DNA from: Nitrosopumilus sp. D6
GTDB taxonomy: Archaea; Thermoproteota; Nitrososphaeria; Nitrososphaerales; Nitrosopumilaceae
DNA length: 33,469 nucleotides
Assembly: GCA_003724325.1 (NCBI GenBank)
Contig: RHFD01000025.1
Location: 1-33,469 of the forward strand
Reading direction: 5' to 3'
Part shown: positions 1-26,738 of the stretch, piece after piece
Numbering within the stretch: position 1 is the first letter of the stretch
Layout of the letters: every line of letters begins with the position of its first letter
Notes under the pieces: model-generated
Seen by the model: only the letters and a program-made list of their open reading frames with translations
Database searches by the model: none
Told to the model about the DNA's origin: nothing
Position numbers and translations under genes: made by a program

Positions 1-141
1 CATCCCGGATCGTCTAGTGTGGTGATCCGGGATTATACCATCCCGGATCGTCTAGTGTGGTGATCCGGGATTATACCATCCCGGATCGTCTAGTGTGGTG
101 ATCCGGGATTATGCCATCCCGGATCGTCTAGTGTGTGATTC
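1..141. repeat. Tandem 38-bp palindromic repeat, about 3.6 units (CATCCCGGATCGTCTAGTGTGGTGATCCGGGATTATAC)
   Basis: Units start at 1, 39, 77 and 115. Each full unit has perfect 10-bp arms ATCCCGGATC / GATCCGGGAT around a 12-nt loop. The fourth unit is truncated after GTCTAGTGTG. The array may extend left of the window. Confidence 0.95.
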
Positions 142-146
142 GTATG

Positions 147-240
147 AAAGTCTTATTAGATATGGAACCGCAGTATTTCCGAGTCAAAGCAATTGATTCA
201 ATCTCATGCTTGGCTCCCCCTCTTATTCAGAGGGGTCCAA
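147..240. repeat. Left copy of a diverged ~92-bp direct repeat containing a CCCCTCT-TATTC-AGAGGGG hairpin
   Basis: AAAGTCTTATTAGATATGGA...AGTATTTCCGAGTCAAAGCA...CCCCTCTTATTCAGAGGGGTCC; matches 1613-1704 in order and spacing. Confidence 0.7.
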
Positions 241-325
241 TAACCATATCATAAATTGCATGCTAGACAAAAGCCCGCAAGAGGATTAAGGAACATACCA
301 AGACTATCGTCAGATACGTATGTAT

Positions 326-598
326 TCAACAGCACTTTAACGCAAGGAGCCACCGGGTTAACAGCTCTTGAATTACCTTGTTTCCACTTACCTCCCATGT
401 CAGGGAATCGGCGGGGCCGAGCTCGAGCACCTTTTCAAAACATTTGATGGCATCAGCTATGCCATTCATGTTAAAGTGTGCAATGCCTTTTTTCAGCCAG
501 AGGTCTGGATTTTCCGGATCTGCCCCTATCTTTACCTCATAACGTCTGATCTCCTCTGTCAGGTACTCGTCGAGGGCGTGTGTCTCAGATTCACTCAT
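326..598 (-). CDS. Short tetratricopeptide-repeat (TPR) protein, possibly truncated
   Basis: MSESETHALDEYLTEEIRRYEVKIGADPENPDLWLKKGIAHFNMNGIADAIKCFEKVLELGP: one TPR unit; the C-terminal ~25 aa do not look TPR-like. Start placed at the internal ATG (598). Confidence 0.55.
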   Translation of the reverse strand: MSESETHALDEYLTEEIRRYEVKIGADPENPDLWLKKGIAHFNMNGIADAIKCFEKVLELGPADSLTWEVSGNKVIQELLTRWLLALKCC

Positions 599-981
599 GC
601 AGATATCTGGCAGAATATAGAGATACACCTGTTAGAGGTGAACCGTTTACGTCAGAGGATTGCCACCACAGGAGGCATGAAGATGTTTGGTATACTGATG
701 ACGTGTATCCCGACGTGGAGAAAAAGGGGGATGAATGTGATGGATCAACTGCTTGAGGTGCCAGAGGCGGCCTGACCCCTTACTCTACTGCACCCGTATG
801 TTAGGCACAAGTGAGAAATAGTGATCGGATTCGTATATCGCATCATGGTAAGAGATTGTATGCATTAAAAAAACTATGGAAAATGACTCTGGTAAAAATA
901 CTGAATTTTACTTTACAATATTTGCAAGATTTCTAGTTAAAATAACACTCTCTGGAACATCACTTGGTATCTTTAATAGAT

Positions 982-1410
982 TCAGTCATATTCCCATGTG
1001 ACTGTTGTCTTTGGAACAAGTTTTAAAATGCATGCCTCGTCTTCACTCAAAAGTTTGATTGCTGCTTTATATTTTTCACCTGTAAAGTACTTTGCAAAAA
1101 TTTCTTCCCCCAATTTTTTTACCTCTGTACCTTTTATTATCTCTGCAATACATTCTCCTGCCACGCCGACTACTGGAGATTTTTCACTTGCATCTATACA
1201 GTAAGAGGCATTTGGGTTTCTTACTAGATTTTTAATCTTTTTTGTTGTTGTAGAAGTTCCCACATAGAAATTCTTGTCTTTGTAAATATACCATACGGGT
1301 GTTATGTGTGGAAAGCCATTCTGAGATATTGTACCAAGTCTCATTATCTTTTGTGTGGTAAGAAAATCTTTTTCCATGTGTGGTGAGTGATTTCTTGTAA
1401 TATAAACCAA
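982..1410 (-). CDS. Pyridoxamine 5'-phosphate oxidase-like (FMN-binding split-barrel) protein
   Basis: MEKDFLTTQKIMRLGTISQNGFPHITPVWYIYKDKNFYVGTSTTTKKIKNLVRNPNASYCID is a typical PPOX/F420-split-barrel N-terminus; the start may be at MEKDFL. Confidence 0.8.
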   Translation of the reverse strand: MVYITRNHSPHMEKDFLTTQKIMRLGTISQNGFPHITPVWYIYKDKNFYVGTSTTTKKIKNLVRNPNASYCIDASEKSPVVGVAGECIAEIIKGTEVKKLGEEIFAKYFTGEKYKAAIKLLSEDEACILKLVPKTTVTWEYD

Positions 1411-1612
1411 AATTCCAAAGACTTTCGCAAATCTAGGCGATATGAATAAAAAAAGTTTCTCATATTTTATACTGTTGCCAGATTGGATATTTTTACTGTT
1501 ATTAAGACGCGCGAGTGTTTTTATGAATTTATAATGACTGAAAACTGACCCAAATCATCCGGATCTAGCATTAACAGTAAAATATCTGAACAGATGACAG
1601 CGTAATTTTCAC

Positions 1613-1704
1613 AAAGTCTTATTAGACATGAAGTGTATAGTATTATTGAGTCAAGCAGTGTTTGGTACGGGGAATTTGACTTATCCTCTGATTCAGAGGG
1701 TCCC
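1613..1704. repeat. Right copy of the diverged ~92-bp direct repeat (CCTCT-GATTC-AGAGG hairpin)
   Basis: AAAGTCTTATTAGACATGAA...AGTATTATTGAGTCAAGCA...CCTCTGATTCAGAGGGTCC; hairpin lies 72 nt from the repeat start versus 70 nt in the left copy. Confidence 0.7.
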
Positions 1705-1837
1705 CGCAACTTTATCTGATTTTTACTAGTGCTAAGCTTTTGGTGTTTTCACAAATTTATCAGATCTAACACTGATTATAATCCACTACAAGACACCCAA
1801 AACATCTGACCTCTTACTGTGATTCTTGTAAAACACT

Positions 1838-1847
1838 TATAATTATG
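1838..1847 (+). promoter_or_regulatory. Candidate TATA box for the 40-aa ORF
   Basis: CACTTATAATTATG upstream of ATG 1865. Confidence 0.4.
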
Positions 1848-1864
1848 CACCCTGTTTAAAATCC

Positions 1865-1987
1865 ATGAGACAGCGAAACGTACTCTTCATTGGAATAGCA
1901 GCAGCCGTTGCCTCGATAGCAATAGGCGGTCACATGGCGTATGGATTCTTCTGCTTTATTCCGCCTGGCTTTATCATCAACTGTTAG
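1865..1987 (+). CDS. 40-aa predicted membrane miniprotein (MRQRNVLFIGIAAAVASIAIGGHMAYGFFCFIPPGFIINC), not in the ORF track
   Basis: ATG at 1865, TAG at 1985-1987; a basic N-terminus followed by a hydrophobic segment. TATA-like TTATAATTAT at 1838-1847 sits about 25 bp upstream, as in leaderless archaeal transcripts. Confidence 0.5.
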   Translation: MRQRNVLFIGIAAAVASIAIGGHMAYGFFCFIPPGFIINC

Positions 1988-2123
1988 AAAAATTATGCAG
2001 GATTGATGGACTAGACAGGGAACTTTTTCTAGTTGAAAGTCAGAGATCAAAAACTGCAGAGAATGCTGGTTTGGAGCAAGACAGATGCCTTGACTATTCG
2101 TATATCTCACGATAGCGTTTTGT

Positions 2124-2171
2124 GCGGTGATCCGGGATCAAGTTTGAACCGGGATTATACCATCCCGGATC
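2124..2171. repeat. Variant/degenerate copy of the 38-bp palindromic repeat
   Basis: GCGGTGATCCGGGATCAAGTTTGAACCGGGATTATACCATCCCGGATCA shares GGTGATCCGGGAT and GGGATTATACCATCCCGGATC with the array at 1-141. Confidence 0.9.
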
Positions 2172-2232
2172 ATTACACCTGAAATCTACAAATACACAAC
2201 ACGTTAAAGACGGCAGCACCACACGTCATTTT

Positions 2233-2973
2233 ATGACCACACTTGAGATTTCCCACAGCAAGAGACTCCTCATAATCCCGGACATACACAACAAGACAAC
2301 AAGGGCAGAAGAGATGATAATGATGGTAGAGCCAGACCACACCATATTCCTTGGCGACTATTTTGACAGCTTTGGAGACAGCTATATGGAGGCAGACGAC
2401 ACTGCAAGATGGCTCAAGAAATCACTAGAGAAACCTGACAGGACGCACCTGGTAGGAAACCACGACCTGAGCTACATGACGCCAAACCCGTATCTGAAAT
2501 GCTCAGGGTATGACGGAGCAAAGTACAAGACAATAGCAGAACACTGCATTGACTGGAAAAAACTCGTCTTATACTGCCAGATAAATGACGACTGGCTGTG
2601 CACCCACGCCGGACTCTCAAAAAGATTCTGCGACTCATTTGATGGTAACATACACGATATACTCGAGTCATCTGCGCGCGATCTATCCACCATACATGAC
2701 AGCGACGCTCCCCATCCATTCTTCCAGGTCGGCAAGCTCCGGGGCGGCACAAAGTCAGTAGGCGGCATACTGTGGTGTGACTATGACGAGTTTGAAGACA
2801 TTCCCGGAATCAGGCAGATATTTGGGCATACAAACTCTGGTGATATACGCCACGTGACAAACAAAGACTCGGAACACTATTGCATAGATACTGGCATGCG
2901 CCACTATGCCCTGTATCATGATGGAGAGCTGCGGGTCTTAAAGACCCGCAGCCTGACAACCAAACCTTGCTGA
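2233..2973 (+). CDS. Calcineurin-like metallophosphoesterase
   Basis: Motifs IIPDIHNK, FLGDYFDSFGD, LVGNHD, CTHAGLS and IFGHTNSGD. Confidence 0.88.
   Translation: MTTLEISHSKRLLIIPDIHNKTTRAEEMIMMVEPDHTIFLGDYFDSFGDSYMEADDTARWLKKSLEKPDRTHLVGNHDLSYMTPNPYLKCSGYDGAKYKTIAEHCIDWKKLVLYCQINDDWLCTHAGLSKRFCDSFDGNIHDILESSARDLSTIHDSDAPHPFFQVGKLRGGTKSVGGILWCDYDEFEDIPGIRQIFGHTNSGDIRHVTNKDSEHYCIDTGMRHYALYHDGELRVLKTRSLTTKPC
2928..2952. repeat. Perfect 12-bp inverted repeat (1-nt centre) inside the 3' end of the phosphoesterase CDS
   Basis: GCTGCGGGTCTT-A-AAGACCCGCAGC. Confidence 0.95.
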
Positions 2974-3928: not shown

Positions 3929-4111
3929 CTAGCGCCTTTTTCTTCGCTGCCCCGGCTTGTTCTGTCCGGGGTACCTTCCTAGTGCAAACCTCTTTTTAAA
4001 ATTGCCCTTGTTTCTCACGCTGGAACTCGTACCGACAATCTTTCTGCCCTCCACCTTTGGGGTCTGGCCGCGTACCTTGCCTGCCTTTGTAATGGAACCG
4101 TGAGTCGCCAT
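3929..4111 (-). CDS. rps30e: 30S ribosomal protein S30e (eS30)
   Basis: MATHGSITKAGKVRGQTPKVEGRK...NKGNFKKRFALGRYPGQNKPGQRRKRR. Confidence 0.85.
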   Translation of the reverse strand: MATHGSITKAGKVRGQTPKVEGRKIVGTSSSVRNKGNFKKRFALGRYPGQNKPGQRRKRR

Positions 4112-11862: not shown

Positions 11863-13004
11863 ACCCGCTTTGTCCCTGCAATGACCCAGTCCTCGATTAG
11901 CTGGCACGTCCTCGGGCTTATCTCGCCGTCAAGGCTGCACTTTTGCTCGACGGGGCAGACAAGGCATGGCGCATTCTCAATTGACTGGGTGCTAATGGGT
12001 GTCTTTTTGAGGATGAGTTTGTACGTCCAGCGGTTCTTCTCTAGGAGCTTTTCGCGCACAATGGTGCCGTTTCTTTCAAGCTTTAGCGCAAGGCGCGAGC
12101 CGTCACGATTTGTTATCTTGAGGCGCTTCCACAGATTTCCCTGCAACATGCCCCCGGACTCGTGGCTTGCAAGTATGTCGCAGACCTTGTTTGTAAGCCG
12201 GTCCATGTCGACTTTTTCTATCTGAAAGTTTTCAATCTCTGCATCTGAGAGCTCTTCTTCGAGCTGCTCCTCAAGCGTCCTTTCGGCCTCTTTTTTTGCG
12301 GCTGCAAGCTCTGCCTTTGTCGGCTTTTTTACCGGCTTTGGTGGCACTTTTTTCTCAGGTTTTTTTATAATCTTTTTAGGCTTTGTAGTTTGTTTTGCTG
12401 GTTTTTTTGTAGTTTGTTTAGTCTTTTCAGGCTTTTTTGTAGTCACCTTTGTTGGTTTATCGGGAGTCTGCTTTGTTGGTTTTTTTGTAGTTTGTTTAGT
12501 CTTTTCAGGCTTTTTTGTAGTCACCTTTGTTGGTTTATCGGGGGTCTGCTTTGCTGGTTTTTTTGTAGTTTGTTTTGTTTGTTTTTCAGTAGCCTGCTTT
12601 GTTGGTTTTTTTGTAGTTTGCTTTGTCTTTTCAGGCTTTGTAGTTTGTTTTTCAGGAGCCTGCTTTGCTGGTTTTTTTGTAGTTTGCTTAGTCTTTTCAG
12701 GCTTTTTTGTAGTCACCTTTGTTGGTTTATCGGGGGTCGGTTTTTTTAGAGTCTTTTCAGGCTCTGCCTTTTTTGCTGGTTTTGTCTCTTTTGTAGTCTT
12801 TGTATTTTCTACAGCATGTCCGGCTTTGGGTTTTGGCACATGCTTTTTGCGCCTAGCCTTTTCCTTTTTCTCCTCGGAATCTAGAATCTTCTTTTGCTGT
12901 TTTAGATCCTTTATCTCGGCCTTTAGCTTTGCCCTTTCTTCTGCTATGGATTCCTTTTTTGTCATCATATCACTCCGTCTGAGATCAACCTTTGGATTAT
13001 CCAT
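11856..13004 (-). CDS. TFE-beta / RNA polymerase III RPC34(RPC39)-like factor with long Lys/Thr/Pro-rich repeat tail
   Basis: C-terminus APCLVCPVEQKCSLDGEISPRTCQLIEDW matches the cysteine cluster recalled for eukaryotic RPC34/39 (APCGLCPV...C..GGEISPSNC.Y...W). Preceded by a winged-helix-like region. N-terminal half is low-complexity KKPTKQTPDKPTKVTTKKPEKTKQTT. Confidence 0.82.
   Translation of the reverse strand: MDNPKVDLRRSDMMTKKESIAEERAKLKAEIKDLKQQKKILDSEEKKEKARRKKHVPKPKAGHAVENTKTTKETKPAKKAEPEKTLKKPTPDKPTKVTTKKPEKTKQTTKKPAKQAPEKQTTKPEKTKQTTKKPTKQATEKQTKQTTKKPAKQTPDKPTKVTTKKPEKTKQTTKKPTKQTPDKPTKVTTKKPEKTKQTTKKPAKQTTKPKKIIKKPEKKVPPKPVKKPTKAELAAAKKEAERTLEEQLEEELSDAEIENFQIEKVDMDRLTNKVCDILASHESGGMLQGNLWKRLKITNRDGSRLALKLERNGTIVREKLLEKNRWTYKLILKKTPISTQSIENAPCLVCPVEQKCSLDGEISPRTCQLIEDWVIAGTKRVK
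12405..12580. repeat. 78-bp near-identical tandem repeat in the TFE-beta-like tail
   Basis: AGTTTGTTTAGTCTTTTCAGGCTTTTTTGTAGTCACCTTTGTTGGTTTATCGGG starts at 12411 and again at 12489 (period 78 bp = 26 aa); shorter related units continue to about 12740. Confidence 0.85.
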
Positions 13005-26639: not shown

Positions 26640-26738
26640 TGGCGCCGGGAGGGAGATTTGAACTCCCGTTCCCTTGCGAGAACGCGCTTTATGGCATTGT
26701 TTCCAGGCGCGCGCCCTACCAGGCTAGGCGACCCCGGC
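26640..26738 (-). tRNA. tRNA-Ser(GGA) with a 12-nt intron and encoded CCA
   Basis: Minus strand GCCGGGG-TC-GCCT...GGGC-G-CGCGC-CTGGAA[ACAATGCCATAA]A-GCGCG-(long variable arm TTCTCGCAAGGGAAC)-GGGAG-TTCAAAT-CTCCC-TCCCGGC-G-CCA. Intron 26689-26700 at position 37/38; anticodon GGA at 26702-26704. Confidence 0.9.

Follow-up and report, generated by a model that had tools for sequence, protein, structure and literature searches.

The window analysed here, 33,469 nucleotides in length, comprises bases 1–33469 of contig C10 in a 1.17 Mb genome that is assembled into 106 contigs and 85% complete, and its base 1 is the start of the contig, that is, an assembly edge and no biological boundary. It opens with a palindromic tandem array, followed by a segment at 142–2123 that carries a TPR-like ORF and a pyridoxamine-5′-phosphate-oxidase-family (PPOX) gene, a further, diverged cluster of this repeat family, a calcineurin-like phosphoesterase gene and the gene for ribosomal protein S30e (Table 1). 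The gene content of the segment had been given by a first-pass annotation of the sequence as a TPR fragment, a PPOX-like gene and a 40-aa membrane ORF; the PPOX-like gene was confirmed by Pfam, the TPR matches fell below the Pfam cut-offs, and the 40-aa ORF is present with no independent support. Members of the genus are mostly labelled Nitrosopumilus, and the closest named relative is Nitrosopumilus sp. H13 (DNA identity ~84%; 94% amino-acid identity for a radical-SAM neighbour protein), which has been assigned to the 'sponge clade' of deep-sea sponge-associated Thaumarchaeota (PMC9289680). Elsewhere in the window, a tRNA-Phe call at 26640–26738 is 99 nt, above the usual length, and possibly contains an intron, and tandem repeats at 12382–12705 with periods of 78 and 66 bp (multiples of 3) are probably coding.

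Table 1. Features of the window and of the interrupted arrays on contig C98
Feature	Position	Strand	Evidence or remark
Palindromic tandem array, 38-bp unit × 3.7	1..139	.	tandem-repeat detection, 98% matches
~104-bp diverged direct repeat, first copy	147..250	+	local alignment
90-aa TPR-like ORF	326..598	-	weak TPR_1/TPR_2 matches, below Pfam cut-off
131-aa PPOX-family gene	982..1377	-	Pfam PF01243
Second dispersed MITE-like element, ~125 bp (approximate ends)	1478..1605	.	copy on C27 (L326:724-850)
~104-bp direct repeat, second copy	1613..1716	+	local alignment
Second, diverged cluster of the palindromic family	2116..2172	.	3 cores, spacings 17 and 15
Calcineurin-like phosphoesterase	2233..2973	+	detected in 4 other genomes of the genus (60 relatives searched, E below 1e-60)
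Ribosomal protein S30e, anchor of the rps30e-radA slot	3929..4111	-	
MITE-like element in array spacer	C98:442-514 (L176:442-514)		10-bp flanking duplication TCAACACGAT
MITE-like element in array spacer	C98:28708-28782 (L285:1009-1083)		5-bp flanking duplication ACCAT

The palindromic array and the segment beyond it

The 38-bp palindromic tandem repeat noticed at first pass at the window start was borne out, with units that are mutually 98–100% identical and a decayed end that reaches ~143. Each unit contains two WTCCSGGA cores, the spacing of which alternates between 23 and 15 bp, and folds, as had also been proposed, into a hairpin with a 10–11 bp stem (DNA z-scores of −4.75 and −4.39); the window contains four occurrences (≤3 mismatches) of a 29-mer that spans the unit junction, against 0.00 in shuffles. 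The array does lie at the window edge, which is an assembly edge; since the window starts at a contig end, the array is visible only up to that point and extends past the contig start. An Rfam search of the window for known structured RNAs gave no match at gathering thresholds. The array differs from CRISPR-like arrays in that the spacers repeat along with the units and are not unique. With regard to integron attC arrays, the units were observed to be identical and head-to-tail, and they do not occur as one per cassette.

According to the first-pass annotation, the fourth unit stops at 141, sequence resembling roughly the missing half of a unit resumes at about 2124, and the simplest reading would be that the ~1.98-kb block between them inserted into, or expanded within, the array. 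The junctions do not bear out a split unit in detail. Unit 4 does not end at 141 and instead decays into the core that follows (GTGT-GTGATTCG vs GTGTGGTGATCCG). The distal cluster, which precedes the phosphoesterase start by ~60 bp, has its own spacer (CGTTTTGTGCGG vs CGTCTAGTGTGG) and a core, then rearranged sequence containing another, degenerate core (GAACCGGGAT), plus ATCCCGGATC. This distal copy is diverged (87% over 23 bp) and overlaps the content of unit 4, the edges at 141 and 2124 sharing ~18 bp and both containing a spacer and the beginning of the core behind it.

Within the block, the ~104-bp direct repeat brackets the TPR and PPOX genes (local alignment score of 34; the highest score among 1000 shuffles was 27), the MITE-like element at 1478–1605 is 87% identical over 92 bp to its C27 copy, which has ~24-bp inverted ends (TTGCCTGATC...GATCAGGCAA), and the GC content at 1001–2000 is lower (35.6%). 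No recombinase ORF, inverted ends, integrase or tRNA attachment site was recognised at the locus, and no empty allele of the block was found, the H13 contig ending 167 bp past the S30e match. The PPOX gene was considered as a mobile accessory gene and rejected as such, its family being present in 56 of the 61 genomes searched, though at other places.

A genome-wide repeat family on a 16-bp lattice

The repeat also occurs outside the locus in the window. A genome search with the array DNA and a three-core pattern located a family of 90 WTCCSGGA cores at 12 sites on nine contigs, with clusters beyond C10 on C29 (two), C52, C56, C81, C87, C93, C98 (two) and C105. The core consensus, (T)GATCC[C/G]GGAT, is palindromic and set on a 16-bp lattice, core spacings being 16 bp in 33/78 and 31–32 bp in 15/78; the higher-order units are 32, 38 and 47 bp long, the last of these on C29, and the largest arrays reach 18 cores. 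Predicted genes flank the array sites, although some arrays are crossed by minus-strand ORFs; the majority of arrays begin 8–60 nt beyond a stop codon, and several are located between convergent genes, such as pyrG and nadK.

The three-core pattern matched 26 times per strand in the source genome and 0 times in a backwards control, and it was found in none of 94 other genomes of the genus except two, in both of which the matches are coding-like by sequence, one being a collagen-like repeat. Single TGATCCSGGAT sites number 44 in the source genome, 19 in H13 and 15 in the sponge symbiont G021, all above the backwards control. A large dispersed family of single units was nevertheless rejected: as the exact cores outside arrays fall mostly within long open frames and are perhaps merely coding, they were not counted as members, which leaves a family that is small by REP-family standards. 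A viral origin of the repeat was also rejected, the exact 26-mer being absent from viral contigs.

A multicopy gene pair, encoding a large protein without a Pfam match and a small Cys-rich zinc-finger-like protein, was observed at L048:4636-6999, L175:924-1226 and L176:113-415 and at H13 contig ends (L226, L234, L235 and L236), and palindromic arrays follow its copies in the source genome. A stretch in C81 (GTGATCCGGGAGAGC) is suggestive of a core that derived from the 3′ end of the zinc-finger-like gene, or of a derivation in the reverse direction.

Two arrays on C98 are interrupted by a ~75-bp MITE-like element with the ends GGCTCTG...CAGAGCC (GGCTCTGGTAAATATGAGTGATC...GATCACCTATTTTTAACAGAGCC), which is present in 11 copies in the source genome (at sites on C98 (two), C4, C105, C27, C92, C86 and C51) and in one diverged copy in H13, and for which no parental transposon was identified. 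The core-to-core spacings across the two inserts are 99 and 96, and subtraction of the insert plus one flanking duplication (83 and 80, respectively) leaves 16 in both cases. This exact restoration of the 16-bp spacing is direct evidence that a mobile element can interrupt array units, and it identifies both C98 sites as interruptions with a restorable unit. The general first-pass suggestion that the arrays are insertion targets thus finds support at these C98 spacers rather than at the junctions of the C10 block; most of the 12 sites contain no insertion. On C29, a PD-Lambda-4-like gene (L048:260-3997) has an array on either side, both built from one and the same 47-bp unit; it encodes 1245 aa and matches PADLOC PD-Lambda-4_A at 3.6e-26.

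The rps30e-radA slot

The gap between rps30e and radA was measured in the 65 relatives where a single locus contains both genes (Nitrosopumilus-related loci L058–L137) and was found to be bimodal, at 80–321 bp in 54 and 1.2–6.9 kb in the remaining 11. On C10, ~3.9 kb lie beyond rps30e and radA is not reached before the contig end; radA was not found in 60 further contigs of the source genome that were sampled, nor on C85, which carries L21e and rpoF. In three relatives that share the phosphoesterase, radA lies upstream of it, at ~170 bp or less in two and at ~1.6 kb in G021, with no TPR/PPOX block at that place. On the matter of synteny, therefore, the first-pass reading stands in part: the TPR/PPOX block is not syntenic in relatives that lack the repeats, but the slot that holds it varies there without them. 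Because of this variation, the arrays are unnecessary to explain accessory genes in the slot, and the most fitting view of the 142–2123 block is that it belongs to an accessory island which occupies the rps30e-radA slot and carries array copies at two places. The slot itself is a candidate insertion hot spot; like known hot spots of accessory-gene insertion, it is near-empty in most relatives and exceeds 1 kb in 11/65, but unlike these, it shows no integrase or tRNA attachment site at C10, and the arrays occur in the source genome only. To our knowledge, rps30e-radA has not been described before as a variable slot in Nitrosopumilus.

Insertion of a ~1.98-kb accessory segment into one unit, with the array serving as a specific insertion or recombination site, would account for the cores on both flanks of the block, its lack of synteny in relatives and its lower GC content, and would agree with other arrays being interrupted by a MITE or flanking a defence-like gene. 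We consider it unlikely, however, given the overlapping edges, the divergence and rearrangement of the distal unit, the failure to recognise inverted ends or a recombinase at the block or to find an empty allele, the variability of the slot in repeat-free relatives and the emptiness of most of the array sites.

Probable lineage-specific expansion of a REP-like repeat

The arrays are probably REP/BIME-like, lineage-specific palindromic minisatellites, which grow by slippage and recombination and act passively, as occasional insertion targets. The basic unit would be the palindromic core repeated on the 16-bp lattice, with the 32-, 38- and 47-bp units arising when a pair or trio of cores was duplicated jointly with its spacers. 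Ancestrally, single units may have stood just past stop codons, and some of these units would have expanded in the source lineage to as many as 18 cores; slippage of replication at the hairpins, together with unequal recombination, is the most likely cause. Such arrays would be non-coding, tolerated in 3′ intergenic DNA, and presumably passive as landing and recombination sites: the exact lattice restoration shows that the ~75-bp MITE-like element has inserted into two of them, and the bracketing of accessory genes on C29, and possibly that on C10, may have come about by array-array recombination. As the species is represented by one fragmented genome, expansion, contraction and transposition are read here from a single snapshot.

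Comparison with H13 at the array sites bears on this history. At C52, the H13 pyrG and nadK stop codons abut where the source genome has ~350 bp with 14 cores; at C93, a 305-bp array-containing stretch of the source genome is missing in H13; and at C105, the repeat stands right after the stop codon in both genomes, H13 having essentially one copy. The simplest reading of these alignments would be old single units followed by a recent array expansion in the source lineage; the empty H13 sites at C52 and C93 could also be deletions in H13.

The same gene ends bear on whether the arrays are functional 3′ elements, selected between convergent genes as bidirectional terminators or mRNA-stabilising hairpins, roles that have been proposed for bacterial REPs. 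The strong hairpins, the distance of 8–60 nt from the stop codon in most arrays and the convergent pairs such as pyrG-nadK are consistent with selection of this kind, but H13 lacks the arrays at the corresponding gene ends, the rest of the genus has no arrays, the distal C10 cluster lies upstream of a gene, and archaeal terminators are usually T-tracts, all of which makes the proposal rather improbable. Quite improbable, too, is that the arrays are recurrent capture sites, at which accessory genes (PD-Lambda-4-like on C29, PPOX/TPR on C10) were gained via recombination between dispersed arrays, the family forming a RAYT-less scaffold for cassette exchange. It is very unlikely that the repeats form a true REP/BIME family moved by a RAYT-like Y1 transposase that escaped detection: they are palindromic, extragenic, clustered and targeted by insertion elements, but no Y1_Tnp (PF01797) match at E≤1 was obtained in H13 or in the source genome, an absence that is not final at 85% completeness of the latter (the control was positive in 10/14 genomes).

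The reading as REP/BIME-like minisatellites also sets the family among known systems. For bacteria, there is a large body of work on palindromic extragenic repeats. Like bacterial REPs, BIMEs and REPINs, the units are short, palindromic, extragenic, clustered and hairpin-forming and often lie past gene ends; ordered tandem clusters are likewise seen in REPINs (PMC3116915), and the two MITE copies in array spacers parallel the use of bacterial REPs as insertion-sequence targets (Tobes & Pareja 2006, PMC1525189). Unlike them, the family is a strict 16-bp-lattice minisatellite in an archaeal host, has no RAYT that could be found and occupies 12 sites only, despite its 90 cores, where REPs usually exceed 100 copies per genome (PMC2817692). 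As neither RAYT association nor high copy number was found, we describe the repeat as REP-like without assigning it to a REP family. Extragenic palindromes in archaeal genomes have been reported as archaeal REPs with RepRanger, in a paper whose main text mentions neither tandem arrays nor any Nitroso- or thaumarchaeal name (PMC12306157); here, by contrast, one specific family with a lineage-restricted expansion is concerned. The ~75-bp element in the two C98 arrays, with its defined ends and 11 copies, resembles MITEs, but the palindromic array itself differs from them: its length is not fixed, and it has neither terminal inverted repeats nor target duplications. In the open-access literature searched, no description of palindromic extragenic repeats in ammonia-oxidising archaea was found.

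In this case the expansion is restricted to one lineage, the nearest relative has empty sites, and the 16-bp lattice makes the footprints of insertions exactly legible; it also reveals rps30e-radA as a variable slot in Nitrosopumilus. If the arrays help to capture genes, such as defence genes, they would provide a testable route of genome plasticity in ammonia-oxidising archaea.
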